Source: Porpolomopsis calyptriformis
Lineage: Eukaryota > Basidiomycota > Agaricomycetes > Agaricales > Hygrophoraceae
Direction: 5' to 3'
NCBI GenBank assembly: GCA_951640195.1
Contig: OX621164.1
Location: forward strand, 1,345,098-1,409,097
Length of the DNA: 64,000 nucleotides
Of this stretch, positions 35,937 to 57,602 are shown one piece after another (the first letter of the stretch is position 1; each line of letters begins with the position of its first letter). The notes below the pieces were generated by a model. It was not told the origin of the DNA and did no database searches. It saw only the letters and a program-made list of their open reading frames with translations. The position numbers and the translations under genes are program-made.

Positions 35937-36641
35937 TTTAGAGTGTGTTGTAAACATAAAACATGACCCAAAATGGCCATGCCATTGTGCCGCTGTCAAA
36001 ATCGGAGTTGAGCTGTCAATAATACCCAGTTCCAAACCTTATATTTGGAGGGGGGGTCAGACCCCCCCTTCTAGTTGTAAACGCGAGTTGTAAATAATTT
36101 TTGAGACTCAGCAAGATCCAAATCATCAGATACGTCCCAAAACATACGGGTCACGTGTGCTCCGCATGTACGACGCATCTCCCTCCCACCTCCCACCCTT
36201 CGTCCCTCCCTGCAAGATCTCGGTGAAGTGCCTCATCGGAGGCTTACTAACTCAGGTGAGCAACCGCCATTCCTAAATTACTTATTTCTTTGTAGTTGCC
36301 ATCAACTAACCGCCGCCCAATTTCAAGAAATGTAGCACGATAACACGGCGGCTTGGTGCGATTGCCTGTATAAAGACGCGAGGGGCATGCAGGGTGAGTC
36401 CCCATCCAATTCACGTCCAACCCACTGATTCAACATGTCTTCCACATCCCAGCAGTTCTATACAGACCCATCTGGGTTTAACTACTCGCGTTTCAGTCCT
36501 GATGGACCATGGACTCTCGTCGGACTCACCCCTTCTGCCCCTACCTCCCTGCCTCCCCTGCCTTCCTTCCAGGATGGGTTCCCCCCCCTCCCCGATTACC
36601 TTTCCACGGCCCCCACCTTGTCCCAACCAACTGGTCGCAAT

Positions 36642-37009
36642 TGTCACGGACACTTTTTTCTTTTTCCTTTTAGTCATACTTGATCAGTCTCCATTCCGTT
36701 TATCCTTCTGCTTTACCATTTTATATATAGACTGATCACATGTACCTTCCTTCCGACTCTTTCACGAGTCACATTCCGTTTCCGCTATTGTTTTCGTGAC
36801 TCTTCACTAGTCACATTCCGGATTCCACTTTGTAATCGTACATACGACTGACTCATGGCGACTCAGGTAGTTAGTATATAAAGCCTGGTCTTTAGTCAGT
36901 AGGATAAGTTCGATTCCTAGTTAGCTCCCCCACTCTTTAGTCGAATTCCATTTCCTCATCAGCCCCTCCAACGCGAGAAGTAAAACCCTTCGACTACCGA
37001 ATCATAACA
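36642..37009 (+). repeat. 5' LTR of the chromovirus
   Basis: 368 bases, starts TG and ends CA. It holds TATATAAA at 36875-36882 and the predicted transcript start near 36906. Several CGTGACTCTTCAC/TTTCACGAGTCAC-like inverted motifs lie upstream of the TATA box and may be enhancer elements. Confidence 0.95.
36875..36882 (+). promoter_or_regulatory. TATA box of the chromovirus LTR
   Basis: TATATAAA lies 31 bases upstream of AAGTTCGATTC, the predicted 5' end of the transcript. Confidence 0.7.
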
Positions 37010-37010
37010 A

Positions 37011-37021
37011 GAATCGAACTT
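37011..37021 (+). other. Predicted self-primer binding site of the chromovirus
   Basis: GAATCGAACTT follows the 5' LTR after one base and is the exact reverse complement of AAGTTCGATTC at 36906-36916, inside the LTR. I see no TGG start as for tRNA-primed elements. Tf1-like chromoviruses prime from the first 11 bases of their own mRNA; the length here is also 11. Confidence 0.75.
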
Positions 37022-37184
37022 CCTTCTTGCGCATCAAACCACTTCCACTCTGGATCCTGCCGAAGACTTAACAAGGTCAATCTTCTCATCTGCAGATTCA
37101 GATACTCCCTTTCAACCAATAGTATTCCAAACCCCCGCACAATCCATCATCCCCCTTTCCCCCTCATCATCATCACTGACATCA

Positions 37185-38609
37185 ATGTCTCAACAAGAGT
37201 ACGAAGCCGATCAATCCGTTCCCGCACCAGGACCCAGTAACATCCCCCCTACCATTCAAGAAGAAGAAGAAGACGTCGTCCCATTTAACATGGAACAAGA
37301 GCTCAGAGATTTAAGAGCACAAATCGACCAGTTCCGCGGTTGGTACTACAGCGAAGTCGACGTCAATGAAGAGCTCCGAAAGGAGCTGAAAGCTCTCAAA
37401 GAAAGTCGACGCGAAGAATCTGAACCAGCCACCCCTCCCCCACGACGACGATCTGTACTTCGGGGACCTGGACTTTCCCCCTCGAACCCTTTCGTTTACC
37501 CCACAAGAAGAACCCAATCCGTCCAGCCTCTATCCCAACCAACCTTTCCCACTCAACTACCCACCCAGACGACTGCTCCCCCCGTACTTCCAGCCCCCAT
37601 CAAAATCAAAATCGCCGATCCGACCGAGTATGATGGAACCTCCGAGAAGCTCGAGGATTTCATTCATCAATGTCGACTCAACTTTGTGGTCAAAGAGTAC
37701 AACGATAAACAGAAGATTATCTATATGCTCTCCTATCTCGGCGACGGCAATCCACGGGCCTGGGGACGACTGTTCACAGAAGGAGTTGACAGGACGAGGA
37801 ATTTCGTATGGGACTACGCAACATTTTTGGACGATTTCAGGGAAGCTTTCGGAAGGATCAACCCAGCGGCGAAGGCGCGGATCGAGCTAGAGAAAGTGAA
37901 GATGACAGGAACGATAGAAGACTACAACCTTCGGTTCATGCAACACGCAGCAAGAACTGAGTACAACGAGACCGCTCTACTTCGGTTTTATAAAGCCGGA
38001 CTCCCCCAGCCGATCCGAACGCGGATCTACTCGATGGACAATATGCCGTCGACTTTGCTGGACTGGACGACGAAAGCGGCCCAGTTCGAAGAACAGTACC
38101 AGGAACAACGAGCCGAACAAGCATTGTGGTCAAGTCGAGATCAAAAAGGAAAGAAGTCTGAAGCCAAATCGAGTCCACGAGGAAACCCTTCCCGCTCCAT
38201 CACCACCACCACCACTTCATCCCCGATCAAACAAGAATCGAGAGAAGCCTCTCTCAAGACAGCGAAACGAGACAACTCCTCCATCACTTGCTACAATTGT
38301 GGCAAAAAGGGACACTACGCCAACGAATGTCGAAGCCCACGTGCTGAAGACGTTCCGGCACGTCAAGAATCCTCAAACTCTACTCGAGGAAAAGGAGGAA
38401 ATCGCGGTCGAGGCAAAGGACGGAATGTCCGAACGATCAATTGGGTCGATACAGAAGAATCGGAAGCGCGGATAGAGGAAGTATCAGAGGACGACGAAAA
38501 GGAAAAAAGGATGGCAAAGGACGACTTGAAGGATATGGGAATCGCAAATTGGAACAAGGAGAGACGGGCTGCGCTAGCTCGAGCGTTAAAAGAGCAAAAG
38601 GATTTTTAG
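37185..38609 (+). CDS. Gag capsid protein of the chromovirus
   Basis: 474 residues from ATG to TAG. An acidic N-terminus with coiled coil (MEQELRDLRAQIDQFRGWYY) and a Pro-rich linker are followed by the retrotransposon gag core (IKIKIADPTEYDGTSEKLED, AWGRLFTEG, FREAFGRINPAAKARIELEK, RFYKAGLPQPIRTRI). A basic linker leads to one CCHC zinc knuckle CYNCGKKGHYANEC near residue 369. The C-terminal acidic and Arg-rich part overlaps pol by 169 bases. It packages the element RNA into virus-like particles. No stop or frameshift is seen. Confidence 0.92.
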   Translation: MSQQEYEADQSVPAPGPSNIPPTIQEEEEDVVPFNMEQELRDLRAQIDQFRGWYYSEVDVNEELRKELKALKESRREESEPATPPPRRRSVLRGPGLSPSNPFVYPTRRTQSVQPLSQPTFPTQLPTQTTAPPVLPAPIKIKIADPTEYDGTSEKLEDFIHQCRLNFVVKEYNDKQKIIYMLSYLGDGNPRAWGRLFTEGVDRTRNFVWDYATFLDDFREAFGRINPAAKARIELEKVKMTGTIEDYNLRFMQHAARTEYNETALLRFYKAGLPQPIRTRIYSMDNMPSTLLDWTTKAAQFEEQYQEQRAEQALWSSRDQKGKKSEAKSSPRGNPSRSITTTTTSSPIKQESREASLKTAKRDNSSITCYNCGKKGHYANECRSPRAEDVPARQESSNSTRGKGGNRGRGKGRNVRTINWVDTEESEARIEEVSEDDEKEKRMAKDDLKDMGIANWNKERRAALARALKEQKDF

Positions 38610-41600
38610 TCCGGCCAAGTGCTAAAAGCCCGAGCACTTTGGCTGTGTCCCACGTATGTGTACCACCATCTATGAAAAGTTTTCGTTTTCTTGGCACACT
38701 TGAACAGGGCAAAGGCGCTCTCGAATTCTATCTTTGGATCACGAGTGCCGACAATCTTCGACGAGTGGCTATCATAGCACTCATTGACTCTGGCGCCTCA
38801 GGGAGTTTTATTGACGAAGCATTCGTTCGTCAAATGGAGATATCGACCTATCAGTTGGATGAGGTTATACCGGTACGAAACGCTGATGGTTCCGAGAACC
38901 GAGGAGGTCCCATCACGCACGATACAGACCTGTTTATTGAGGCACCAGATCTATCCTTTCGAGAACGAATCCGGTTGGAGGTCACCAACTTAGGAAAAAA
39001 GCAACAGGTCATCCTCGGCTTCCCATGGCTTTTGCGACACAACCCCACCATCAATTGGACAAAAGGCACCTTAACTTTTGCGTCTGGTGACACGCTGTTC
39101 AGTAGTATGCGAGTCGGAGTGTTGCCCCCACAGGAAGAACTCTACGTCTTCGATTCGAGTCTGAAACATGACTCCTTTATCCATTTGGTCGGAGTTGACC
39201 ACTCCCGACCAGTTTCCATCGAGGAGGATATCAAATCCTTTATTCCCAGTCGTTATCACAATTTCTGGCGTGTTTTTCATACCGCAGAATTCGACAAGCT
39301 TCCTCCTCGACGTTCTTTTGATCATGCGATCAACCTCTACCCGAACACCAAGTTTCAAGTCGGAAAACTCTATCCCCTTTCCCCCTATGAACAGGTAGAA
39401 CTTAATAAGTTTATTGACGAAAATCTCAGAACAGGTCGGATACGTCCATCGAAATCACCGCAAGCTGCTCCCTTCTTCTTTGCGAAAAAGGCTGAAGAGA
39501 TCAATGCTAAAGGTCTCAGTGCTGGTCTACGTCCCATCCAGGACTATCGCTACATCAACTCAAAAACCATTCCTGATCGTTACCCCCTTCCCCTTCTATC
39601 GGAAATCCTCCAAGTACCGAAGCTTGCTACTGCTTCACTCTTTACAGTCATCGATATTCGATGGGGATTTAACAACATACGACTCAAGGAAGGTGACGAA
39701 TGGAAAGCAGCTTTCATCACCAATCGAGGACTCTTCGAACCGACCGTTATGTTCTTTGGACTACGGAACTCCCCAGCATCTTTCCAACGAATGATAGACG
39801 TTCTCTTTAAAACCGTTCTGGACTCTGGCTGTGTCCACATTTATATTGACGACATTCTCATCATGGGCGACACCCCCGAAGAAATCCGCCACTGGACTGA
39901 CGAAACCCTTAAGCTCATGGAGAAGAATCAACTATCCGCCAAACCCGTCAAATGCCAAATGGAGAAGACCTCTGTTACATACCTTGGTACAATCATCAGT
40001 AAAGGTCAACTCGCTATCAATCCAAAAAAGGTAGACGCCATCATCAATTGGCCGACGCCCCAAAAGCTGCGAGACCTCCAGTCCTTCCTTGGCACCACCA
40101 ACTTCTGGCGTCGTTACATCAAAAGTTTCTCCTCAGTCGTTCGTCCCCTCTGTGGCCTTTTGCGGAAAGACCAACCTTGGGATTGGTCTCCCTTGTGTCA
40201 AAAAGCCTTTGAGCAACTCAAACATCTCGTCACTACAGCCCCTGTCCTTCTTACCCCGCGGCCAGACCTTCCTTACCTCTTGGAGACTGATGCCTCAGAT
40301 TTCGGTATTGGCGCAGTCTTATCTCAGAAACACGACAACGGTTGGCACCCCGTTGGCTTTTTCTCAAAGTCTCTACTCCCTGCCGAGTACAACTATCCTA
40401 CCCATGATCTGGAGATGCTTGCAATCGTCACTTCCCTCAAATATTGGCGTTATCTTTTAGAGGGCGCAAGGGATACTGTGTTGATAAAGACGGACAATTT
40501 AGCGCTCAAGTATTTTATGCAGAACAGATCCCTCTCCAGACGACAAGCACGTTGGATGGAATTCTTAGGCAGATTCGACTTCAAAATCGAGTATTCCCCT
40601 GGAGTCAAAAACAAAGCCGATGGACTCTCCCGCCGACCCGACCACCGTCATACAGAAAAAGAAGAATTAGAAGGCCAAGCCCTCCTCCCCCCTGAACGTT
40701 TCATCAATGCTATCATTTCCATGTCCGAACCTTCCTTTATGTCAAGACTTCGCTTCCCCGACTTCAACGAAATCCCAGAGGACATTCGCATCAAGTTATC
40801 CGATCCCTCTTCCGGCTACTCCTTCACTGACGGAATTGTGAGAGATGCAGGAGATCGTATTGTCGTGCCAGCAGACGTATTGCTACGCACAGAGATAATT
40901 CGATTGACCCACTCCCTGCCCCATGGAGGCCATCCCGGAATCGAGAAGACACGTGAGCTTGTGTTGCGGAACTACACCTGGAGTAGTGCTGCCCCTGACA
41001 TCCGTGTATTCGTATCATCCTGTCCGACCTGCCAACAAGTCAAGCTCTATCCTTCAAAGCCTGCAGGTCTCCTGGAACCCATTCCCCCTTCGTCTCGACC
41101 TTGGGAAGAAATCACCGCCGATCTAATCGTGGAACTCCCCCAATCATCTGGCTACGATGCTGTCTTAGTCGTTGTCGACCGCTTTACCAAGCGCGCTCAC
41201 TTTATTCCGACGACATCAAATATTTCTGCAGAAGGAGTCGCAAAACTCTTCAGGGACAATGTATGGAAACACCACGGCTGGCCAAAGAAGATCATAACCG
41301 ATCGAGGAACTCAGTTCGCTTCCAAATTTGCGAAAGCTCTCAACACTCATTTGGGAATCATCTCCGGTCTATCCACCGCTTATCATCCCCAAACTGATGG
41401 TCAAACGGAACGCACCAATCAAGAACTCGAACAATACCTTCGTTTGTATACAAACTTTATGCAAGACGATTGGTCCAACTGGCTATCCCCAGCTGAATTC
41501 GCTTACAATAACCGACAGCACTCCTCGACGAAACACACTCCCTTTTACCTTGATACTGGCCAACATCCCTTCGTCCCACCTGTCCCTACGGCCCCTACTT

Positions 41601-42169
41601 CCAACCCCGCAGCAGATACCTTCCACGATCATCTCACAGAAGCCCGTGAAGAAGCCACAAAAGCTCTAGAAACAGCGGCCGAAACCATGAAACGCTTCGC
41701 AGATCGCAAACGGAAAGATACCCAACTCCAAATAGGTCAATTTGTTTATCTTGATACTCGTAACTTAAAAACAGGTCGTCCAACCCTCAAACTTGATGTC
41801 CGACGCACCGGACCGTTCAAAATTCTAGAAAAGATCGGAAAAGTCTCTTATCGCCTGGCCCTCCCCTTATCATGGAAAATACACGACGTCTTTCACGTTT
41901 CACTCCTGAGACCCGCTAACATTAACTCCGATCTCCACCCAGAGGAAGTAGATGATAATCTCCGTCCACCTCCGGATGTCATTCAAGAGAAAGAAGAATA
42001 TGAGGTCGAACAAATTCTCCAACATCACGGGTCCACCCGACGTCGTACGTATTTGGTCAAATGGGTCGGCTATCCCATTGAAGAAGCAACCTGGGAACCG
42101 AAGAAGAACCTCCTCCATGCGAAAGAACGAATTCTAGAATACGAACAATCAATTCAAACGGCGACCTGA
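38441..42169 (+). CDS. Pol polyprotein: protease, reverse transcriptase, RNase H, integrase, chromodomain
   Basis: The frame is open from 38441 (first codon TTG, not a true start) to a TGA at 42169, in the -1 frame relative to gag. Domains in order: aspartic protease with ALIDSGASGSF (residue about 115), reverse transcriptase with FTVIDIRWGFNNIR and YIDDILI (about 468), RNase H with LETDASDFGIGAVLSQ (about 615), integrase zinc finger (HSLPHGGHPGIEK, CPTCQQVK) and catalytic D-D-E (ADLIVELP, ITDRGTQFAS, TERTNQELEQ). A C-terminal chromodomain follows (about 1187-1238): YEVEQILQHH, then TYLVKWVGYPIEEATWEP. The chromodomain keeps the three aromatic cage positions expected for H3K9me binding. All motifs are intact. 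Translation could use a -1 slip at the T5 run just before the gag stop. Confidence 0.95.
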   Translation: MGRYRRIGSADRGSIRGRRKGKKDGKGRLEGYGNRKLEQGETGCASSSVKRAKGFLVRPSAKSPSTLAVSHVCVPPSMKSFRFLGTLEQGKGALEFYLWITSADNLRRVAIIALIDSGASGSFIDEAFVRQMEISTYQLDEVIPVRNADGSENRGGPITHDTDLFIEAPDLSFRERIRLEVTNLGKKQQVILGFPWLLRHNPTINWTKGTLTFASGDTLFSSMRVGVLPPQEELYVFDSSLKHDSFIHLVGVDHSRPVSIEEDIKSFIPSRYHNFWRVFHTAEFDKLPPRRSFDHAINLYPNTKFQVGKLYPLSPYEQVELNKFIDENLRTGRIRPSKSPQAAPFFFAKKAEEINAKGLSAGLRPIQDYRYINSKTIPDRYPLPLLSEILQVPKLATASLFTVIDIRWGFNNIRLKEGDEWKAAFITNRGLFEPTVMFFGLRNSPASFQRMIDVLFKTVLDSGCVHIYIDDILIMGDTPEEIRHWTDETLKLMEKNQLSAKPVKCQMEKTSVTYLGTIISKGQLAINPKKVDAIINWPTPQKLRDLQSFLGTTNFWRRYIKSFSSVVRPLCGLLRKDQPWDWSPLCQKAFEQLKHLVTTAPVLLTPRPDLPYLLETDASDFGIGAVLSQKHDNGWHPVGFFSKSLLPAEYNYPTHDLEMLAIVTSLKYWRYLLEGARDTVLIKTDNLALKYFMQNRSLSRRQARWMEFLGRFDFKIEYSPGVKNKADGLSRRPDHRHTEKEELEGQALLPPERFINAIISMSEPSFMSRLRFPDFNEIPEDIRIKLSDPSSGYSFTDGIVRDAGDRIVVPADVLLRTEIIRLTHSLPHGGHPGIEKTRELVLRNYTWSSAAPDIRVFVSSCPTCQQVKLYPSKPAGLLEPIPPSSRPWEEITADLIVELPQSSGYDAVLVVVDRFTKRAHFIPTTSNISAEGVAKLFRDNVWKHHGWPKKIITDRGTQFASKFAKALNTHLGIISGLSTAYHPQTDGQTERTNQELEQYLRLYTNFMQDDWSNWLSPAEFAYNNRQHSSTKHTPFYLDTGQHPFVPPVPTAPTSNPAADTFHDHLTEAREEATKALETAAETMKRFADRKRKDTQLQIGQFVYLDTRNLKTGRPTLKLDVRRTGPFKILEKIGKVSYRLALPLSWKIHDVFHVSLLRPANINSDLHPEEVDDNLRPPPDVIQEKEEYEVEQILQHHGSTRRRTYLVKWVGYPIEEATWEPKKNLLHAKERILEYEQSIQTAT

Positions 42170-42293
42170 TCACTCTTTCACGGTATCAACTCCCCTCGTT
42201 TATATTTTCACTTTTGTCACCTTTTCCAAACTCCGACTCTTCCTTATAATCTCTTTCGTCTCCGTCTTTCACTCTCAAGAAATCGATCTCGCT

Positions 42294-42872
42294 ATGCCCG
42301 CCGAACGCTCACATCAAACTGCCCGCAAGTCTACTGGTGGTCGTCCACCCCGCACTCCTCGCATGTCCACTGGAGGGCAACCCCCTCGTCGCGCCCCCCC
42401 TCCGTTCGCTTCCACCTCCTCCGCTTACGGTGAAGCCGAGCTCGCCGGACAACTCTGGCAGCACAACCGTCGCGCACGAAATCGAGACCTTCCCATATGG
42501 CCAGAGGAAATCGTCGCTCCACCTATCCCGCCCGAGCAGATCATCGAGTCGCTGCAGAAAGATATCGATTATTACAAGAACGAGATCGCAAGACTAAACG
42601 AAGAATTGTACAACCAAGGAATGAGTTTGGACGGAAAGAGAAGAGCGAGTGAGTACTGGCGGGAGCAGGCCAAACACTGGGAGGCGAAGTACGAGGAAGT
42701 CACAAAGGTACTTCCCCATCTTGATTCTCCAGTTCCCCCTGTTTTCCCGGGTCCACTCATCGTCCCCCCCGGTTCGTCGTCGAACCCCATCACCATCCCC
42801 GACGACGGCGATATTTCCCCGGTCGACATTATTTCCCTGTCGACCATCGCCTCCAACAAGGACTCAATCTAG
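42294..42872 (+). CDS. Third ORF of the chromovirus with histone-H3-tail-like N-terminus
   Basis: 192 residues between pol and the 3' LTR, where some elements carry env. Residues 8-16 are QTARKSTGG, identical to H3 residues 5-13, and the match extends as QTARKSTGGRPPR (H3 has KAPR at the end). A second, degenerate unit TPRMSTGGQPPR follows at residues 21-32 with Met at the lysine-9 position. The middle (about residues 83-140) is a predicted coiled coil (IIESLQKDIDYYKNEIARL), and the C-terminus is Pro-rich then acidic. No membrane segment is present, so it is not an envelope protein. I do not recognise a family for the rest. It ends 80 bases before the 3' LTR. Confidence 0.75.
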   Translation: MPAERSHQTARKSTGGRPPRTPRMSTGGQPPRRAPPPFASTSSAYGEAELAGQLWQHNRRARNRDLPIWPEEIVAPPIPPEQIIESLQKDIDYYKNEIARLNEELYNQGMSLDGKRRASEYWREQAKHWEAKYEEVTKVLPHLDSPVPPVFPGPLIVPPGSSSNPITIPDDGDISPVDIISLSTIASNKDSI

Positions 42873-42952
42873 TCCTTCCCCTCCTCCACACCCTTCAACA
42901 CTCTCGAAGCCGCCTCGAATTTCGGGACGAAATTCCTTTTAGTGTGGGTGTA

Positions 42953-43320
42953 TGTCACGGACACTTTTTTCTTTTTCCTTTTAGTCATACTTGATCAGTC
43001 TCCATTCCGTTTATCCTTCTGCTTTACCATTTTATATATAGACTGATCACATGTACCTTCCTTCCGACTCTTTCACGAGTCACATTCCGTTTCCGCTATT
43101 GTTTTCGTGACTCTTCACTAGTCACATTCCGGATTCCACTTTGTAATCGTACATACGACTGACTCATGGCGACTCAGGTAGTTAGTATATAAAGCCTGGT
43201 CTTTAGTCAGTAGGATAAGTTCGATTCCTAGTTAGCTCCCCCACTCTTTAGTCGAATTCCATTTCCTCATCAGCCCCTCCAACGCGAGAAGTAAAACCCT
43301 TCGACTACCGAATCATAACA
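42953..43320 (+). repeat. 3' LTR of the chromovirus
   Basis: Same 368 bases as the 5' LTR by visual comparison. It is preceded by the purine-rich stretch AGTGTGGGTG, a likely polypurine tract. Confidence 0.95.
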
Positions 43321-44524
43321 GCAATGCTGAGAATGACCCGCCGATCCCTCAACATCCGGCGGACCTCACGGTTCCAGCCCGCAAGGTTGGAGGATCGCGT
43401 CGCCGTACTGGAAAGACGAACTCAAAGAAACGACCAGCCCCCCTCAAGAGGGAGGGGGTGATACTTGATCTGTCCGTCTCTGGAGGGAAACGTCCACGCG
43501 GCCAAACAAATGGCGCAGTGAACTACTCTGAGGAGGACATCAACTCCCTCCTTGACTTGGTCGAGAAGCACCTTCCAGTTGGTGCGCGAGGTTGGGCAGC
43601 TGTGTCGGAGGGGTATGAGGCATGGGCGATCGCTAATGATCGTCCTCGCCATTCTACCAGGTCACTCGATATCAAATATAAACAAGTAAGTAATTAATTT
43701 CATTCATTTATTCACTATCTAATGGAACTTTGCCAGCTTGTCCGGATGGAAAAGCCCACTGGTGAGGGTGAATGCCCGCCTGAAATCGAGCGTGCGCATG
43801 CTATTGAGGCCGCCATACTCGAGAAGGCAGGTCTGATGGAGCTCGATGATGAAGACATCGCGCAGATATCCGACGTGGTCGAGATCAGCAGCGACGAGGA
43901 TTTAGTCCCTGTCCACCGTGCCAAGCGCATCAAATGCGAGCCTGTCGAGGGATCGATCCCTCCCAAGATCTCACAGCGCCAGGCCAAGAACGCTGGGCAG
44001 AATCTGCTCCAGATGATCACCAACGTCCTCGATCCCACTGCCCACGCCGCGAGGCAAGTTGCTCGAGATGAGGAGCGCCTCGCTCACTCATTCCAAACCA
44101 CCCAGCTGCTCATGCTTACCACCCAAGTCCAGGATGCGCAGGCGACGATCGAGGTTCTACGAGATCATCTCAGTCAGTCTGAGAGTGCGCAACTCACAGC
44201 TGAACGTCAACTTGATAGAGCAGAACTGCTCTCGATGCTGAAGACCCCAGCCAAGCGCCGACGGTACAACCGTGACGTCAGCTAGTCCCCCCCCTCTCCC
44301 TCTACCGCCTTTGTGAGGCGTAACCGCACGACACATACCACCGCCTCAAAGGCATGCCCCATCCCCACCCCTGATCCAATCCCGGACACCCCTACCCCCC
44401 TCCCGGAAAGCCCTGACAGGCCCGCCGCTGGGCCTTCCAACACGTAGTCACCACTAATGTGGTCTGGTAAGTAAATTTTTTATTTGAATGTTCTCTTTTG
44501 TTACATTTTGTTATGTTTTGTTCT

Positions 44525-44566
44525 CCCCCGCCCCCGCCCCTGCCCCCGCCCCCGCCCCCCCCCCCA
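44525..44566 (+). repeat. C-rich microsatellite (CCCCCG-type) in outer Harbinger copy
   Basis: Runs of five to thirteen C separated by single G or T. The opposite strand has at least four G runs and could form a G-quadruplex. It lies between the Myb-like gene and the transposase. Confidence 0.7.
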
Positions 44567-44684
44567 CGTATTTGTTCAGCAGTAGTATATTTGCACTAGT
44601 CACATCTAATACCAGCATCATCATATACCAAATGTGTGAATGGAACCAAAACATTGTTCCGATATATGAGTGATACAAAAAAAA

Positions 44685-45958
44685 TTAAACTACTACTGAA
44701 CCCATATGAAAACGGGTGACTTGGTCATTCCGATGTACGTCCGCAAAGACCATCTGCTCGAATCCTGACCATACCCTGTCCCCTGCATCCCCTTGCCAGA
44801 TAGGTAAGTATACTGACCTAATCTGATTCAACCCAACTCTCCGGCAGCGAAGATTGTAGAGCCTTGCGCAGGACTCTAGGATGTTGGAACGACGGTCCTT
44901 GTAGGTGATGCTGAGGGGAACCCTGAGTCGGCTGAAGCAACCCTGGAGGGCGCGATTGCCCCACTCAGCAGTCTGTCGGAACGAGAGGAGTTGTCAGTCC
45001 AATGCTAATAGTTGCGCGTGTTGGATGGGATTGGCGGGAATTACTGTGTTATTCTTCAAAGGAGCTCAAATCCAGCTATGAGTCGCAGCAGTTCCGTGAG
45101 GGAACGCTGTATCGGTGACGAGGTAATACCCTTCAGGGGTAAGATCACGTAGCTTGCGGTAAATCGGTCGTGCGACCCGGGAGTCATGCCAGCTGCCGGG
45201 GGCATTCAGCTGGCATGCGATGATTTCACCTGTAAAAAGCATGAGCAATGAATTCACAAAATGAGAGTGCTTACCAGATGCTGCATATGCAAAAACAGAG
45301 CTCACGAAGTGTTCGTGAAGCCAGCCATTGTAGGTAGCGTTCTCAATATCCACATCAGTTGAGGTCTACACTGGCAGATTCAACCCATCCATAGTGCCAA
45401 ATGCACCAGTGAGTAAGGGGTGGCGGGCTACCACCAGTTCATTGAGACACTGGTAGTCATCACCGGCAGGCCACCGAACCTGCGCGTCGGATATCTTGTG
45501 GAGGGTCGCCACGAGAAGTCGGAGGGAAAAATTTAAATACCTTGAGACCATGGTGGGGATAAGTGCAAAGATTTGCATCAATCCAGTGTCGTGTATAGTG
45601 GAATTGAGGTAGTGTAGGATGAGGCCGAGCCCCCCTGCAGCATTGAGAGACCGGGAATAGATTCGTGGTGCGGCAGAAGTGCCGATGTCGCGTCGCGTAA
45701 CTGGGGTTGTGTTCCAGGCAGTAGCAAAGCCACTGCCCAGAATATAATTGAAGGTGATAGTGTTGAAACCCATCGTCGTGATATACGCCTTGTCACAACG
45801 ACTTGCGTATAATTGCACCCAAGGCGTAGCCCAGCGTGGGTTGGGCAGAAGGGCTCGACGCGTAATCCACACATCGCGATCCGCTGGATTTCGATTTGCT
45901 CTTCAGCATCGTCTCCGTCGTCTTGAGCCATAAGAAGGTTGATTAGATCAGCGTCCAT
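44685..45958 (-). pseudogene. PIF/Harbinger DDE transposase, outer copy (degenerate)
   Basis: Cut-and-paste transposase. The minus-strand frame begins MDADLINLLMAQDDGDDAEE at 45958 and then lacks 73 bases present in the inner copy, causing a frame shift. It continues TRRALLPNPRWATPWVQLYA, GFNTITFNYILGSGF, and the first catalytic Asp region GAFGTMDGLNLPV, with a TAG right after it. The next block is ACQLNAPGSWHDSRVARP with LVTDTAFP, and it ends in NQIRSVYLPIW-like sequence. TAG after LPV, TGA after SWI and TGA after ALLALD are shared with the inner copy. Confidence 0.75.
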
Positions 45959-46164
45959 CGATTGAGATCTGGAGGGAGCGTATCGGAGGTAAATGTGGAA
46001 GTGGATGCCTTCCCGTGGTGAATAAACCATTGAAATATGCTAAATTCATTAGGGCGGAGTGTGAAATCAACATTTAGTTTAGAGATCCTAAACCGTAATA
46101 ATAAACATATAAAATATTTTACTTCCACATTTACCTCCGATACGCTCCCTCCAGATCTCAATCG

Positions 46165-47511
46165 ATGGACGCCGATCTAATCAACCTTCTTACGGCTCAA
46201 GACGACGGAGACGATGCTGAAGAGCAAATCGAAATCCAGCGGATCACGATGTGTGGATTACTTATAGTCCACGGCGTGATGGAGGACCAACGACTTCGTG
46301 CGCAAAAGCGTGCACGAAGTCAACATTATTTGACGCGTCGAGCCCTTCTGCCCAACCCACGCTGGGCTACGCCTTGGGTGCAATTATACGCAAGTCGTTG
46401 TGACAAGGCGTATATCACGACGATGGGTTTCGACACTATCACCTTCAATTATATTCTGGGCAGTGGCTTTGCTACTGCCTGGAACACAACCCCAGTTACG
46501 CGACGCGACATCGGCACTTCTGCCGCACCACGAATCTATTCCCGGTCTCTCAATGCTGCAGGGGGGCTCGGCCTCATCCTACACTACCTCAATTCCACTA
46601 TACACGACACTGGATTGATGCAAATCTTTGCACTTATCCCCACCATGGTCTCAAGGTATTTAAATTTTTCCCTCCGACTTCTCGTGGCGACCCTCCACAA
46701 GATATCCGACGCGCAGGTTCGGTGGCCTGCCGGTGATGACTACCAGTGTCTCAATGAACTGGTGGTAGCCCGCCACCCCTTACTCACTGGTGCATTTGGC
46801 ACTATGGATGGGTTGAATCTGCCAGTGTAGACCTCAACTGATGTGGATATTGAGAACGCTACCTACAATGGCTGGCTTCACGAACACTTCGTGAGCTCTG
46901 TTTTTGCATATGCAGCATCTGGTAAGCACTCTCATTTTGTGAATTCATTGCTCATGCTTTTTACAGGTGAAATCATCGCATGCCAGCTGAATGCCCCCGG
47001 CAGCTGGCATGACTCCCGGGTCGCACGACCGATTTACCGCAAGCTACGTGATCTTACCCCTGAAGGGTATTACCTCGTCACCGATACAGCGTTCCCTCAC
47101 GGAACTGCTGCGACTCATAGCTGGATTTGAGCTCCTTTGAAGAATAACACAGTAATTCCCGCCAATCCCATCCAATACGCGCAACTATTAGCATTGGACT
47201 GACAACTCCTCTCGTTCCGACAGACTGCTGAGTGGGGCAATCGCGCCCTCCAGGGTTGCTTCAGCCGACTCAGGGTTCCCCTCAGCATCACCTACAAGGA
47301 CCGTCGTTCCAACATCCTAGAGTCCTGCGCAAGGCTCTACAATCTTCGCTGCCGGAGAGTTGGGTTGAATCAGATTAGGTCAGTATACTTACCTATCTGG
47401 CAAGGGGATGCAGGGGACAGGGTATGGTCAGGATTCGAGCAGATGGTCTTTGCGGACGTACATCGGAATGACCAAGTCACCCGTTTTCATATGGGTTCAG
47501 TAGTAGTTTAA
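46165..47511 (+). pseudogene. PIF/Harbinger DDE transposase, inner copy (three stop codons)
   Basis: One frame from MDADLINLLTAQDDGDDAEE to a TAA at 47509-47511. It contains the N-terminal extension LIVHGVMEDQRLRAQKRARS missing from the outer copy, TRRALLPNPRWATPW, GFDTITFNYILGSGF, the GTMDGLNLPV region, GSWHDSRVARPIYRKL and EGYYLVTDTAFP, and a C-terminal NQIRSVYLPIW. A 45-base stretch after YAASG can be an in-frame intron. The internal TAG and two TGA codons sit at the same places as in the outer copy, so the protein cannot be made at full length without readthrough. Confidence 0.75.
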
Positions 47512-47630
47512 TTTTTTTTGTATCACTCATATATCGGAACAATGTTTTGGTTCCATTCACACATTTGGTATACGATGATGCTGGTATTAGACGTGACCAG
47601 CGCAAATATACTACTGCTGAACAAATACGT

Positions 47631-47665
47631 GGGGGGGGGGGCGGGGGCGGGGGCGGGGGTGGGGG
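47631..47665 (-). repeat. G-rich microsatellite in inner Harbinger copy
   Basis: Eleven G followed by repeated CGGGGG units. It corresponds to the C-rich tract of the outer copy but differs in length, which fits replication slippage after duplication. Confidence 0.7.
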
Positions 47666-47742
47666 AGAACAAAACATAACAAAATGTAACAAAAGAGAAC
47701 ATTCAAACAAAAAATTTACTTACTGGACCACATTAGTGGTGA

Positions 47743-49071
47743 CTACGTGTTGGAAGGCCCAGCGGCGGGCCTGTCAGGGCTTTCCGGGAGGGGGGTAGGG
47801 GTGTCTGGGATTGGATCGGGGGTAGGGATGGGGCATGCCTTTGAGGCGGTGGTATGTGTCGTGCGGTTACGCCTCATGAAGGCAGTAGAGGGAGAGGGGG
47901 GGGACCAGCTGACGTCACGGTTGTACTGTCGGCGCTTGGCTGGGGTCTTCAGCATCGAGAGCAGTTCTGCTCTATTGAGTTGACGTTCAGCTGTGAGTTG
48001 CGCACTCTCGGACTGACTGAGATGATCTCGTAGAACCTCGATCGTCGCCTGCGCATCCTGGACTTGGGTGGTAAGCATGAGCAGCTGGGTGGTTTGGAAT
48101 GAGTGAGCGAGGCGCTCCTCATCTCGAGCAACTTGCCTCACGGCATGGGCAGTGGGATCGAGGACGTTGGTGATCGTCTGGAGCAGATTCTGCCCAGCAT
48201 TCTTGGCCTGGCACTGTGAGATCTTGGGAGGGATCGATCCCTCGACAGGCTCGCATTTGATGCGCTTGGCACAGTGGACAGGGACTAAATCCTCGTCGCT
48301 GCTGATCTCGACCACGTCGGATATCTGCGCGATGTCTTCATCATCGAGCTCCATCAGACCTGCCTTCTCGAGTATGGCGGCCTCAATAGCATGCGCACGC
48401 TCGATTTCAGGTGGGCATTCACCCTCACCAGTGGGCTTTTCCATCCGGACAAGCTGGCAAAGTTCCATTAGATAGTGAATAAATGAATGAAATTAATTAC
48501 TTACTTGTTTATATTTGATATCGAGTGACCTGGTAGAATGGCGAGGACGATCATTAGCAATCGCCCATGCCTCATACCCCTCCGACACAGCTGCCCAACC
48601 TCGCGCACCAACTGGAAGGTGCTTCTCGACCAAGTCAAGGAGGGAGTTGATGTCCTCCTCGGAGTAGTTCACTGCGCCATTTGTTTGGCCGCGTGGACGT
48701 TTCCCTCCAGAGACGGACAGATCAAGTATCACCCCCTCCCTCTTGAGGGGGGCTGGTCGTTTCTTTGAGTTCGTCTTTCCAGTACGGCGACGCGATCCTC
48801 CAACCTTGCAGGCTGGAACCGTGAGGTCCGCCGGATGTTGAGGGATCGGCGGGTCATTCTCAGCATTGCGACCAGTTGGTTGGGACAAGGTGGGGGCTGT
48901 GGAAAGGTAATCGGGGAGGGGGGGGAACCCATCCTGGAAGGAAGGCAGGGGAGGCAGGGAGGTGGGGGCAGAAGGGGTGAGTCCGACGAGAGTCCATGGT
49001 CCATCAGGACTGAAACGCAAGTAGTTAAACCCAGATGGGTCTGTATAGAACTGCTGGGATGTGGAAGACAT
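47743..49071 (-). CDS. Myb/SANT-like transposon protein, inner copy (complete)
   Basis: Two exons on the minus strand (49071 to about 48506, and about 48455-47743, joined at IKYKQ-LVRMEKPTGEG). The N-terminal Pro-rich part MSSTSQQFYTDPSGFNYL leads into SKKRPAPLKREG and the trihelix-like INSLLDLVEKHLPVGARGWAA. An acidic region (LDDEDIAQISDVVEISSDED) with a SUMO-like site IKCEP follows, then a coiled coil (LLMLTTQVQDAQATIEVLRD), KTPAKRRQYNRD and a Pro-rich end. Unlike the transposase it has no internal stop. It is expected to bind subterminal DNA and carry the transposase into the nucleus. Confidence 0.75.
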
Positions 49072-50174: not shown

Positions 50175-51576
50175 CTAATCCAAGAGTACTTCAGGAAATA
50201 CAAAATTTTTAGTTACAGGAGTAGGAGAGGTAGAATCCCAGATAGCTTTTATTCTGTTGACAGAAGTAGCCCTTGAGATAGCAACATAAAATTGACCATG
50301 AGTAAAAACAGGAGAATGAAGATCCAGACCAATATGTTTCAAAGACTGTCCTTGAGCTTTATTAATTGACATAGAGAAAGCATTCCTAACTGCAAATTGA
50401 ACACGACAAAGTTGGAAGGGAATCTGTGCATTAGAAGGATAGCACTTGATTCTAGGTAAGAAAACATGTCTTCCATTATGATCACCTCCAAGAATACGAA
50501 TCTCTAAGACACGATGGCTCATACATGTTATAATTCCTCTTGTGCCATTACAGACACCCTCTGCTGGATTGAGATTATGTAGAACCATAACTGGAGATCC
50601 AGTCTTCAAAGTAAGCTTATGCAAAGGAAGACCTGAGGCATTGATAGTATTAAGATACTCTGTGGGATACATCAACACTGCTCCAGGATCAGCTGTGTCC
50701 TCTTTGATAGAGTCTGCACTATAATACACTCTTTCAGCACCAGGAAATTTGTTGAGAATTTTAGAGTTAAGATTATCAACATCATCATTCCTTACAGAAA
50801 GAATGCATCTTTCCATAAAGTACTGATCAGGGGGGTAAGGCAATTGGTCAATGCCAGGGTATAATGTGTCCACCAAAGACTCCAGAGTATTTTGAGAACA
50901 ACCAAAGTATGGAGGCAAGGTGATATTATTATCAGCATCAGTATATTTGCCATGTCCAACTTCTAATTGCCACTTTGCAAAGTCAGCTTCTTCTTGATTA
51001 CTACCTAAGCGCATATTCATCTTCAAATGGAGGATTTTAAGATGGTGCCAGATGTATGAACTTTGAATGCAAGCATTGACAATGATAGGTCTAGAGCCTT
51101 TGATAATAACAGGGAGGATTTGCTGAAAGTCCCCTCCAAAGACAACAGTTAGACCACCAAATAGTTTGTCTGAAGCTCTAATATCTCTGCAAGTACGGTC
51201 AAAAGCTTCCTGGCAATGTCTATGCTGCATAGTAACTTCATCATAAATGAGGAGAGAAGCCTTCTGAATTAATTCAGCTTCTAAAGAAGTTTTTTTGATA
51301 GCACAGAAGGAATTCTCATTTATATTGATAGGGATTTTTAGCCTAGAATGAGAAGTGCGTCCACCATTTAATAGTAGTGCAGCAATACCTGAGGAAGCAA
51401 CACAGAGAACAATAAGACCTTGAGCACGAAGAGCATAACACAAAGTGTTGTAAACATAAGTCTTTCCAGTGCCACCTGGACCATGGAGGAAGAAACATTG
51501 ACCTGAGTGAGACTCAACAGCATGTAAAATCTGATCAAAGGCAGAGTGCTGATCAGCATTGAGATGAAGAATGCGC
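50175..51576 (-). pseudogene. Helitron PIF1-like helicase domain (3' half of RepHel)
   Basis: Superfamily 1B helicase that unwinds DNA during rolling-circle transposition. From the gypsy border it reads ILHLNADQHSAFDQIL, Walker A GPGGTGKTYVYNTL, CVASSGIAALLL, GGRTSHSRLKIP, Walker B ASLLIYDEVTMQHR, VVFGGDFQQILPVI, then the long insert and motif V/VI regions (LTLKTGSPVMVLHNLNP, GLCNGTRG-like VCNGTRGII, SINKAQGQSL, YVAISRAT). The helicase part itself is open with normal motifs. Removing the insertion makes it continuous with the Rep half across ATERILHLN. It cannot work in its present broken state. Confidence 0.9.
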
Positions 51577-52185
51577 TGATACGTCTGCTTCGTGTATGAG
51601 AACCGAACACAGAACAAGGTGCAAGGACGACTATAAAGAGTCTCGACTCAGCCTATGATCAATAATCGTGGAAAGGGAGTCTTCGATTGTTCGCGAACGA
51701 GATCGATCGGGGAATCGGAAGGATCGGAAAGTCGAAAGAGGAAGTCTTAGAAGATCTAAAGAGGATCTAGACTCGAGAGCGAGAAAGAAGCGAATATCTA
51801 ACTTGTTGGATCACTAGCTACAACATACTGTATATATATCTTCTAGTACAAGGATCCCTTTGAGTGTATATGATAAAAGGGGAGCCTCTCTAATGATCTA
51901 AGGGGAAAGTAGTAAATAGGAATGAAGGGATCGAATGAAAAAGGGAGAAATAGAAGAGAACTGATGCCTTTGAATAGTGTCTTCCCTTTGATATACAAAC
52001 TTTCGTTCGCGTTCGGAAAGCTTCGATCACGTTCGGAGCGTTCGATGATTCTCGAAGTTGTTCGGGACGTTTGGGAGCTATCGGGAGCATTCGGAGGGTT
52101 CGTGTCCGTGTTCGAAGGACTTGGTAGGCGTCTAGTATTCGTATAGTTGAATATACGGTGCTCAGGGGACGGAGGGGTTGTATCA
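51577..52185 (-). repeat. 3' LTR of the degenerate gypsy element
   Basis: 609 bases with TGATAC/GTATCA ends. Sense direction is the minus strand. Confidence 0.92.
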
Positions 52186-54191: not shown

Positions 54192-57100
54192 TCAAGCGAA
54201 GTACGGGATGACTCTAAACGCGGCGATCGGGCGATGTAAGACGGATCCGTCGAGTTCCGCGACGATATAAGCTTTCCCTAGGTTTCGAGATACCACGACT
54301 AGGGGTCCTAGGTATCGAGGACGCATCTTCCGATTGAGAGACTTCTCGATTTTTGTGTTCCGAATGAGTACGAGATCACCAGTCTTGAAATCGTAGTCGC
54401 GAATGGTCTTCTCGTGTTTCTTCTCGAATCGAACGGCGGATCGTAGACGAGCGGCGAGAACCTTCGATCGGAGTTGGTCTAAATCAGCGTCTCGTTTCTG
54501 TAGGGCGATCGCGCGTTGCGATATTAGATCAGTCGTCGAGAGAACCGAATCTGGAGCGGGAAGGAGATATGTTGCTTCGGAAATATCTAACGGAAGCAAT
54601 GGCTGAGACCCTGTAATGGCGAAGTAGGGTGAGCATCCCAGTCGCTTTCGGGTAGTGACGCGCTCAGCCCAGAATACGGAGTAGGCTCCGATCGACCATT
54701 GTTTCTGATCGCCATCGACGGCTTTGAATAGCGATTGTCGTACGTCGAAGTGAGATCGTTCGACTATTCCGTTCGCGCGAGAGTTGTATCTGCTAATGCG
54801 AATATGGTTGATTCGATAGCGCTTGGCGAGATGATCTACGGCTCCTAAGAAAGCTGTTCTGTTGTCCATGACGATTTCTCGAAGAGAGCCCCATCGACAG
54901 ATTATATCCTCGAAGATCCATTCGCCAATCGATTTCGCTGTTTCCGAACGAAGCATTCAAAATTCGGGATAGTGGGTGAGGGAGCATCGCCCTTGAACGA
55001 TATATCGAAATGGGCCGGATCGGGGCATATACATAGTGTCGACGTAGATTTTGGCGAATAGGGGAGCTGGCGTGGCGACGGTCGGAGGGACGAGGGCTTG
55101 CGTGGTTTGGCGAACCTGACAGGTATGACATGTCCGAACGAACCAGACTATGTCGGGGGCCATATGGGGCCACCAGAAGCGTTCGGAAACGATCGATCGG
55201 GTAGCGAAGATAGCCTTGTGGCCTGTTCGATCGTGAAGTTCCGTCATGATCGCTAATCAGCGATCCGGATCGATGACTAATTTATGAGCTCCTTGTCTAT
55301 CCTTTCGCCATAGTCGGTGGTTGTCGATAAAGAACTCTTCGCAGTATCGTATAAAACTCGCGTAGTCGCTGTCGGACATGTTGCTTGGTCGTTCGAGATC
55401 TGAAAGCCATTTTCGAACGAGGAGAAGTCGTCGATCGTCTTGCTGAGCTGCTTCCGATCGCGGAACGATGTTGTAAGAATCGGTACGTTGGTGGATAGGG
55501 TCCTCCTCCTCCTCACTGAAATGTTTACTCTGCGAGTAAACTGAGGTGGGCATTCGGAGGGTTTTCGTTCGGGGCGCGGGCGAATCGTTGATATGGTGCA
55601 TTAGTCCGTGGACGCGATCGATCCAATCATCGAAGTCTTTATCGATCGGTTCTTCGTCGTCTTGGTCATCGGGCTGTCGGGGGCGTCGAGAGAGACCGTC
55701 GGGACCATGGTTCGAACCGGCGACGTGTACCAAGGTAAAATGGAACATTAGGATCGCTACGATCCATCTGTTAATACTAGCTTGCGGCGCGATGTCTGGG
55801 TTCACTAGCATTCCCTTGATATAGCGGGCGTCGACTTCTATAATGAGGTTCCGCACGCCGATGAGGTAGAGTCGGAGCGATCGCAAGGCTCGATACAGAC
55901 CGTAGATTTCGAGTTTCGGCTGAGAGAACCGTCTTTCTCGATCGTTCAACGTGATTGAACCGAATCGATTATAGTACCGTTTCTTCGGGTCGTCGGGATC
56001 GCATTGGCAGAGATGAAAGCCAACCGCAATATGTGATGTGTCGACGGCGAGTATGACGGGAGCGTCAGAAGTATAATCGAGAACTCGTAGAGCGGGCGAT
56101 TCTAGAAGAGCTTGTTTCAAGTCCTCTTGAGCGGCGAGTTGGTCGGGACCGAATTCGAAGGGCATATCCTTCCTAGTGAGCTTGACTAGGTGGTTCGCTC
56201 GATGCGCGAAGTTGCGAATGAATATCCGAACGACGCCAATAGTGCCAAGGAAGGCTCGAACTTCGGAGAGGTCTTTACAGGGGCCCCAATTTCGGATCGC
56301 AGATACGCGTGATTCGTCGGGTAGTCGTCCTAAGTGAGTACATCGATGTCCAAGAACGGTGGTTTCTTCTGCGCACAAGAACGATTTATAGCCTGACATC
56401 GTTCCACCGCAATATTTCATTCACTGGACTATCCGATTCAGATTCCCGAAGTGTTCCCATACGAATCGTCGAATTCCGTCGTTTTCGGGAATCGTTTCAT
56501 AGGATCCATCGGGGAGTACATATCGAGTCGCGGGACCCTTCACAGGGATATCGTCGATATAGGGGATTGTAAACTCAGGAATCTCCGGTTGGAGGATATA
56601 GGTGACGTCGTCGTGAAAAACGGGCACAGAGTTGGTCCATCCCATGGGTAGGGTAACTAGTCGATGAGCCCCATAGGGTGTCTGGAACGTGGTTAAATCG
56701 CGAGATGAAGGCGCGATCACTCGTTTGTCATATCCGACGTAAAGGTCAAACATAGCGCCGCAGGATCGACCGCCGAACTGTTCGGCCAAGTGTTCGGGGA
56801 TTGGCGTTACTCCCGAATGTCGAATCGTGACTTGATTGAGTGGTTCGAGACTGTGAACGATTCTAAGTTCCTTCCCTCCTTTCTTTAGAACGGTGAACCA
56901 TCGCGATCGGTAGGAGGAGTTCGAGGGTTCGTAGACACCAGCGTCGATTTTTCGCTGGATAACTTTACATACTTCGTGGTAGATCCCTGGGGGAATCGGA
57001 ATATTCTTTTGTACCCAGGGCGTATGTGGTATGACTGGGAGATCGACGGGAGGGAAAAAGTCGGATCTGAAACGTCCTCGTTCGGAGTTGTTCCAGGCGA

Positions 57101-57602
57101 AGGCGAGATCTTGTCTTCTCATGAAATCGTGAAGGAGGGCCCTTTCTTGAGGCCAAAGGAAATCTCCGGGGTGAGCTTTATCGAAAAGCTCCATCCGTTC
57201 GATCGTATATCGTTCGGTCGGGGTAAACGTGGGGGGGTTCGGGTCGAGTGTTGGCATATTCGCGAGTGGATCGCCAAGAATTTTCCGAATGATTCGGAAT
57301 TTGTCGGGGAGTTCAGCTACTACGGAGCGAACTTTCTTCGAGACAGGTTTATATTTCTTTTTCGATGTGAGGAAGGTTGCAATTTCCATCGATCGATCGA
57401 GACGGTTGGAAGCGGAATGTCGATCGCTAGTCGATCGAGATTTAGAGATAAGGTCGGGGAGGTCACAAGCGGATAAATAAGCGTGGGAAACTGTTGAAAC
57501 TTTATTTGTTGCGCATAGAGGCGCACAGGAATTGACAGATAGCATAGACGTAGTGTGGTCGTAATCTAGAATTATCGCGATCTCTCCTTGATCAGGAATC
57601 AA
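54192..57602 (-). pseudogene. Pol (reverse transcriptase, RNase H, integrase) of degenerate gypsy element
   Basis: One minus-strand frame broken by TGA at 56423-56421, 55259-55257 and 54959-54957. Reverse transcriptase: WFTVLKKGGKELRIVHSLEP, LPMGWTNSVPVFHDDV, and the active site IPYIDDIPV. Thumb and RNase H: VRAFLGTIGVVRIFI, APVILAVDTSHIAVGF, VHVAGSNHGPDGLSRRP. Integrase: zinc finger HDRTGHKAIF with CHTCQVRQ, then catalytic core ending [18 protein letters not shown] and a C-terminal [19 protein letters not shown]. The frame is offset by one from the upstream protease. All three stops can be explained by CGA to TGA. Confidence 0.9.

Follow-up and report, generated by a model that had tools for sequence, protein, structure and literature searches.

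The described systems that we take to be closest in kind to the present element are fungal Ty3/gypsy chromoviruses such as MAGGY and the Tcn1-like elements (see also PMC2864245). The features that it has in common with them are the LTRs, gag, the protease-reverse transcriptase (RT)-RNase H-integrase order, and a C-terminal chromodomain with its aromatic cage. The present element differs from them by the addition of a third open reading frame, ORF3, whose product starts with a tail resembling histone H3 around lysine 9.

Short tails of this kind can be bound by chromodomains. The MPP8 chromodomain was reported to bind the methylated, H3K9-like tails of ATF7IP and GLP with KD values of 193 nM and 337 nM, respectively, which is tighter than its binding to H3K9me3 (PMC7618375), and on this precedent the docking of a chromodomain on a mimic can exceed H3K9me3 binding. 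Short ARKS mimics can also mislead, as indicated by the dispute reported over the mimicry claim for SARS-CoV-2 ORF8 (PMC10833455).

The element and its third open reading frame

The window analyzed here is a stretch of DNA of 64 kb from a genome of 33.5 Mb in 17 contigs. It contains a complete Ty3-type element at positions 36642-43320, with the following features.

36637-36641, no strand: target-site duplication GCAAT, 5' copy (sequence)
36642-37009, plus strand: 5' LTR, 368 nt, identical to the 3' LTR (sequence comparison)
37185-38609, plus strand: gag, Ty3 capsid-like, with a CCHC zinc knuckle (ORF and Pfam)
38441-42169, plus strand: pol open frame, with protease, RT, RNase H, and integrase (ORF and Pfam)
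41999-42148, plus strand: C-terminal integrase chromodomain of the HP1 type, cage Y, W, Y (Pfam, PDB matches)
42294-42872, plus strand: ORF3, accessory protein of 192 aa (ATG-start ORF)
42315-42341, plus strand: H3K9 mimic QTARKSTGG, ORF3 residues 8-16, equal to H3 5-13 (sequence identity)
42342-42353, plus strand: RPPR, ORF3 residues 17-20, resembling KAPR of H3 14-17 (alignment)
42354-42389, plus strand: second, less conserved H3-like repeat TPRMSTGGQPPR, in which Met replaces K9
42531-42722, plus strand: predicted helices 80-107 and 112-143, coiled-coil-like (low-confidence model)
42771-42797, plus strand: ORF3 residues 160-168, in the C-tail, with the strongest constraint of any 9-codon window (substitution counts)
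42953-43320, plus strand: 3' LTR (identical to the 5' LTR)
43321-43325, no strand: target-site duplication GCAAT, 3' copy (sequence)

The original prediction had described an intact chromovirus, and the sequence bears this out: the LTRs are identical at 368 of 368 nt, GCAAT is found on both sides, and gag, pol, and the chromodomain are all present. The gag zinc knuckle and the protease-RT-RNase H-integrase order gave Pfam matches above the cut-off, and the pol open frame overlaps the end of gag in a different frame (38441-38609 region). By its LTRs and duplication, its gag/pol order, and the chromodomain at the C terminus of its integrase, the element belongs to the chromoviruses (Ty3/gypsy). 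It is a recent insertion. ORF3 follows the pol stop (42169) and precedes the 3' LTR.

The insertion site of the chromovirus lies within a palindromic, Harbinger-like element, in one of its two arms; in the other arm the ORF is unbroken (48493-49071, by eye). The large palindrome covers 43321-48869, with 99% between 44531-45863 and 46333-47665 and 98% between 43321-44559 and 47631-48869, and the Harbinger-like element has ORFs with DDE_Tnp_4 and DUF6818. Also by eye, PIF1/Helitron-type helicase-like ORF pieces were seen at 50175-51617 and 60639-62663 (minus strand), with a Ty3-like pol at 54192-57602 between the two.

The ORF3 protein begins with MPAERSHQTARKSTGGRPPRTPRMSTGGQPPRRAP. Translation and alignment confirmed that QTARKSTGG, its residues 8 to 16, is identical to H3 residues 5 to 13. 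Lys12 of ORF3 corresponds to H3 K9, R-K-S/T is correctly spaced within an H3-like sequence, as would be expected of an H3K9 mimic, and the core lies at a nearly equal offset from the N terminus in ORF3 (residue 8) and in H3 (residue 5). Upstream of the core, H3 R2, T3, and K4 align with ORF3 R5, S6, and H7. The match had been predicted to reach H3 P16-R17, and this held in part: P19 and R20 of ORF3 agree with these two residues, but K14-A15 in between is replaced by R-P. A phmmer search of ORF3 residues 1-40 against PDB sequences gave 129 matches up to an E value of 10, with a best E value of 0.007, and the best 60 of the 129 were all histone H3, H3 peptides, or H3 variants or chimeras. By chance, about 2.8e-5 exact H3-tail 9-mers are expected in the six frames of the window. 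A degenerate ARKSTGG pattern searched with zero mismatches in the 33.5-Mb genome found 70 sites, namely 67 ORF3 copies and 3 host H3 genes, and the reversed version of the pattern, used as a control, matched 2 sites genome-wide.

A single-sequence model of ORF3 of low confidence (mean pLDDT, 55), used for helix positions only, has a disordered N-tail, helices, and a disordered C-tail; the body of the protein is probably helical and self-associating. ORF3 matched nothing above the cut-off in Pfam, and with a top 19-residue hydropathy mean of 0.95 it does not have the character of an env-like, membrane-spanning envelope protein. The most constrained window of the protein, residues 160-168 (42771-42797), lies near SSSNPITIPDD. 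We take this region and an IISLS stretch to be possible SUMO-interacting motifs.

One host H3 gene (L010) has a micro-exon of about 25 nt (about 1315-1345), flanked by two introns, which encodes Q5 to the start of G13, almost exactly QTARKSTGG. Two ORF3 variants have 6 of 9 and 7 of 9 codons identical to one or other host H3 gene. Both observations point to an origin of the core as a small H3 exon taken over from the host, and such an origin would be compatible with any function. However, in codon-usage draws scored against the best of three H3 genes, at least 6 matches arose by chance in 13% and at least 7 in 2.6%, figures that do not allow for the several subfamilies, and the H3 likeness continues past the exon boundary (RPPR). 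We regard such a capture as quite unlikely.

Conservation of the core among genomic copies

The genome has 128 matches to ORF3, including fragments and distant coil matches, from which 101 loci were taken. One duplicate (L104) was removed, the 90 loci with a full-length single match were kept, and the 10 without one were left out. Sixty of the 90 full-length copies are free of stops over the first 190 codons. Lys12 is retained in 89 of the 90 copies, including all 60 stop-free ones, and the exact nonapeptide in 65 (50/60 stop-free and 15/30 stop-bearing copies), among which its DNA has 14 synonymous spellings. The youngest clade has the exact nonapeptide in 18 of 18 copies, 16 of them stop-free. 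Ten stop-free copies depart from the nonapeptide: six have R to H, one has R to C, two have G15S, and one has G16S, and all seven changes at R are of the kind that CpG decay produces. Besides the basic residues, the copies also retain Q, T, S, T, G, and G of the core. Genome-wide, old ORF3 copies decay chiefly by R to C/H, i.e., CpG to TpG/CpA, which suggests that the repeats are CpG-methylated.

Over the whole of ORF3, amino-acid changes are fewer than silent ones, indicating a functional gene rather than a fortuitous frame. The core was compared with ORF3 outside residues 8-33, with CpG changes set aside and the very divergent copies L106 and L111 excluded. Nonsynonymous non-CpG changes were found at 2 of 54 possible in the core versus 182 of 1064 elsewhere in ORF3 (P = 0.007; this and the other P values are descriptive because the copies share ancestry), and synonymous changes were not significantly rarer in the core (8/23 versus 149/302, P = 0.20). 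When all changes were counted, the core ranked second by constraint among 182 nine-codon windows, the first being that which starts at residue 160; for changes shared between copies, 9 of the 182 windows were at or below the value of the core.

Transversions were counted in 86 copies, L027 and L097, whose upstream sequence is non-homologous, being excluded as well. The core had 1/54, compared with 12/42 in the seven-codon leader directly before it (P = 1.5e-4) and 30/248 in the gap between pol and ORF3 (P = 0.024); the pol C terminus had 19/384. There was no significant difference between core and gap for shared transversions (1/54 versus 21/248, P = 0.14) or for transitions (P = 0.11 for all and 0.25 for shared). 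Judged from these sequences, the mimic looks selected rather than accidental, because the nonapeptide and its Lys are retained across copies and the core has a deficit of non-CpG amino-acid changes. Purifying selection on the core, the first check proposed with the original prediction, was thus detected in copies within this one genome.

Related copies and other families place the tail in a wider setting. The chimeric copies L085, L086, L087, L092, and L095 have a stop-free ORF3 variant of 75-77% identity with an insertion in its leader; QTARKSTGGRPPRT is retained in four of the five, and L095 differs by one G to S. The chimeric repeat, described here from L085, contains an unassigned open frame of 493 aa, a pol end that is divided between two frames, and an ORF3 of 193 aa, open and with the H3 core. 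After these comes the terminal part of a different Ty3 element, which has an ORF3-like gene of its own. A separate Ty3 family (L114), with a pol end that has no Pfam chromodomain, has an ORF3 of 173 aa that has the helical region in common with the ORF3 copies, at 30-41% identity across about 65-117 residues; the H3 tail is absent from it. Five stretches located 3' of other chromodomains were also examined (L124-L128). Two of them, L126 and L128, represent one abundant chromovirus family with at least 150 matches in the genome and an ORF3 of its own (L126 and L128, from base 342; 245 aa in L128); the N-tail of this ORF3 is basic and rich in Ser, Pro, and Arg, with no H3 likeness. No recognizable ORF3 was found in the downstream stretches of L124, L125, and L127. 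As the tail is missing from both other ORF3-bearing families, it marks one lineage, and since the L126/L128 chromovirus combines a chromodomain with a tail-less ORF3, the mimic and the chromodomain are not obligatorily linked.

Common descent was considered in two cases and found unsupported, with hhalign probabilities of 0.3% for ORF3 and the ORF3 of the L128 family and of 1% for ORF3 and gag.

The basic tail of the L126/L128 family, together with the low-confidence prediction of disorder in the tail of the present ORF3, would suit another explanation, namely, that the N-tail is an ordinary basic disordered patch for nuclear import or nucleic-acid binding, and that its H3 likeness is coincidental. 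This accounts poorly for nine identities at a near-H3 offset from the N terminus, expected at 3e-5 per window, for the conservation of Q, T, S, T, G, and G and not of the basic residues alone, and for the free change of the leader residues just upstream. We therefore find it rather improbable.

Neither ORF3 by itself nor an alignment of nine ORF3 members found relatives in protein database searches at E values of 0.01 and 0.1, and viral contig scans with pol and ORF3 gave no confirmed relative. A relative sharing the core only could escape the protein search because nine residues cannot reach significance in 5.8 billion sequences. With pol, 1031 relatives were obtained at an E value of 1e-30. 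Among the best 120 of these 1031, four had 54-58% identity over 94-100% of pol, and another (P0005) had 58% identity over 77%. The species-named pol relatives among the matches listed were four, from Lyophyllum, Amanita, Agaricus, and Trametes, which makes the host a fungus and probably a member of the Agaricomycetes.

Possible writer and reader of the ORF3 tail

The integrase had been predicted to end in a chromodomain with the aromatic positions of the cage, and we found this to be so: the domain scored 48.8 bits with PF00385 against a cut-off of 25.1, Y, W, and Y are present, and its PDB matches are of the HP1 type (Oxpecker, HP1/CBX1, CDYL, and MPP8). The Y/W/Y cage is intact in 82 of the 90 copies; the remaining eight are made up of three copies that lack a match, four in which a stop stands at W, and one that is not covered at the first Y. 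In the youngest clade, 17 of 18 copies have the cage intact (L027 lacks a match), and it was seen as well in the window element and five aligned relatives (P0001-P0004 and P0006). Full-length chromodomain matches go with 58 of the stop-free ORF3 copies; 44 of these chromodomains are open, and 14 contain a stop.

On the host side, one Pre-SET match was found in the genome, versus zero in the 14 control genomes of the same search. By its Pre-SET match, the corresponding gene is a candidate H3K9 methyltransferase. The host genome also has six DNA-methylase matches, and a chromoshadow search of it, which had no positive control, gave no HP1 match. On H3, the HP1 chromodomain contacts Q5 to S10. 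The writer DIM-5 is reported to contact A7 to G12 and, in vitro, to require R8 to G12 and to tolerate K14R (PMC3248561). Every residue that DIM-5 requires is present in the ORF3 tail, and the footprints of writer and reader combined cover Q5-G12, close to the identity block Q5-G13.

The best explanation, to which we give an even chance of being right, is that the disordered tail of ORF3 is methylated by a host enzyme and docked by an HP1-type chromodomain. A host H3K9 methyltransferase would methylate Lys12, and the methylated residue would be bound by the chromodomain of the element's own integrase or by that of host HP1. Docking would put ORF3 on the integrase or on heterochromatin, and the ORF3 helices might bring the integration complex or particle along. 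A docking site predicts a block limited to Q5-G13 because the contacts of both writer and reader lie within it; H3 T3, K4, K14, and A15, which flank the identity block, are not retained in ORF3. A pure methyltransferase decoy would need the writer part alone. Points against docking include the tail-less ORF3 of the other chromovirus, the chromodomains with a stop (14/58), the missing HP1 match in the chromoshadow search, which had no positive control, and the stronger constraint on residues 160-168.

In a more elaborate form, which we put forward as doubtful, the element would carry both an H3K9-like substrate (ORF3) and an HP1-type reader (the integrase), with the host methyltransferase as the writer, to form a methyl-lysine switch. 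Such a switch would let the element sense the silencing activity of its host. Once methylated, ORF3 would dock on the integrase, with a change in assembly or in the choice of target, or would vie with chromatin for chromodomain binding.

Directly 3' of the mimic region, TPRMSTGGQPPR forms an H3-like repeat with Met24 where K9 would stand. As H3K9M is reported to trap Clr4 and dominantly block H3K9 methylation (PMC5030085), a K9M trap is a reasonable idea, and this second unit may be a natural trap of the H3K9M type. That would be one variant of an explanation in which ORF3 is a decoy that shields the element from silencing by sequestering or blocking the H3K9 methyltransferase of the host, or HP1. 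Met24 is retained in 87 of 90 copies, and Pro at position -2, as in the second unit, is reported to be accepted by SUV39H1 (PMC8303541). The heavy CpG decay of old copies, from which the element seems to live under DNA methylation, and the six DNA-methylase matches are also in keeping with a need for such protection. However, the R-M-S-T-G of the second unit is not conserved as would be expected of a trap: among 12 CpG-prone Arg codons, that of R23, the equivalent of R8, is the least retained (30/60 stop-free copies), whereas R11 of the first unit is kept in 53/60 and shares second place (P = 8e-6, the copies not being independent). The poor retention of R23 lowers the K9M trap as the main explanation. 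In addition, STGG of the second unit is lost from the chimeric variant, writer-only binding leaves the conservation of Q5 and T6 unexplained, and a decoy would presumably be needed at a dose near that of H3. We consider a decoy function unlikely.

If the ORF3 tail is methylated and read by a chromodomain, a mobile element has copied the histone mark site that silences it. This would offer a peptide-level route to how chromodomain elements pick heterochromatin, and also a way into the exploitation of the fungal H3K9 pathway by a parasite.

Comparison with known systems

In line with the original prediction, no described chromovirus pairing an H3 mimic with a chromodomain was found in the open-licence literature, among the matches listed and at the level of titles and abstract starts; in the same literature, among the matches listed, there was no other case of a selected nine-residue H3 copy in a transposon protein. 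A nine-residue H3 copy under selection in such a protein is unusual. Extra ORFs as such have been reported in other LTR elements, as here: bdelloid rotifer elements have one beyond gag and pol (PMC5408684), and an orchid element has captured an m6A demethylase (PMC9289625), with no histone mimic mentioned in the title or abstract start of either report. The H3K9M oncohistone (PMC5030085) shares R-M-S-T-G-G with the second unit of ORF3, a likeness of sequence alone in a unit that is poorly conserved.

SARS-CoV-2 ORF8 is likewise encoded as an accessory protein by a parasite genome and matches H3; its match, ARKSAP, is shorter, it has an ER signal peptide, and its mimicry is reported as disputed (PMC10833455), whereas ORF3 has a nine-residue match and selection across copies. 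ATF7IP, G9a, and GLP, read by MPP8 or HP1, likewise combine a short H3K9-like tail with an HP1-type reader (PMC7618375, PMC9768651). They are host silencing factors whose methylation has been reported, whereas ORF3, known from its sequence, is a candidate substrate encoded by a mobile element that carries a possible reader as well.
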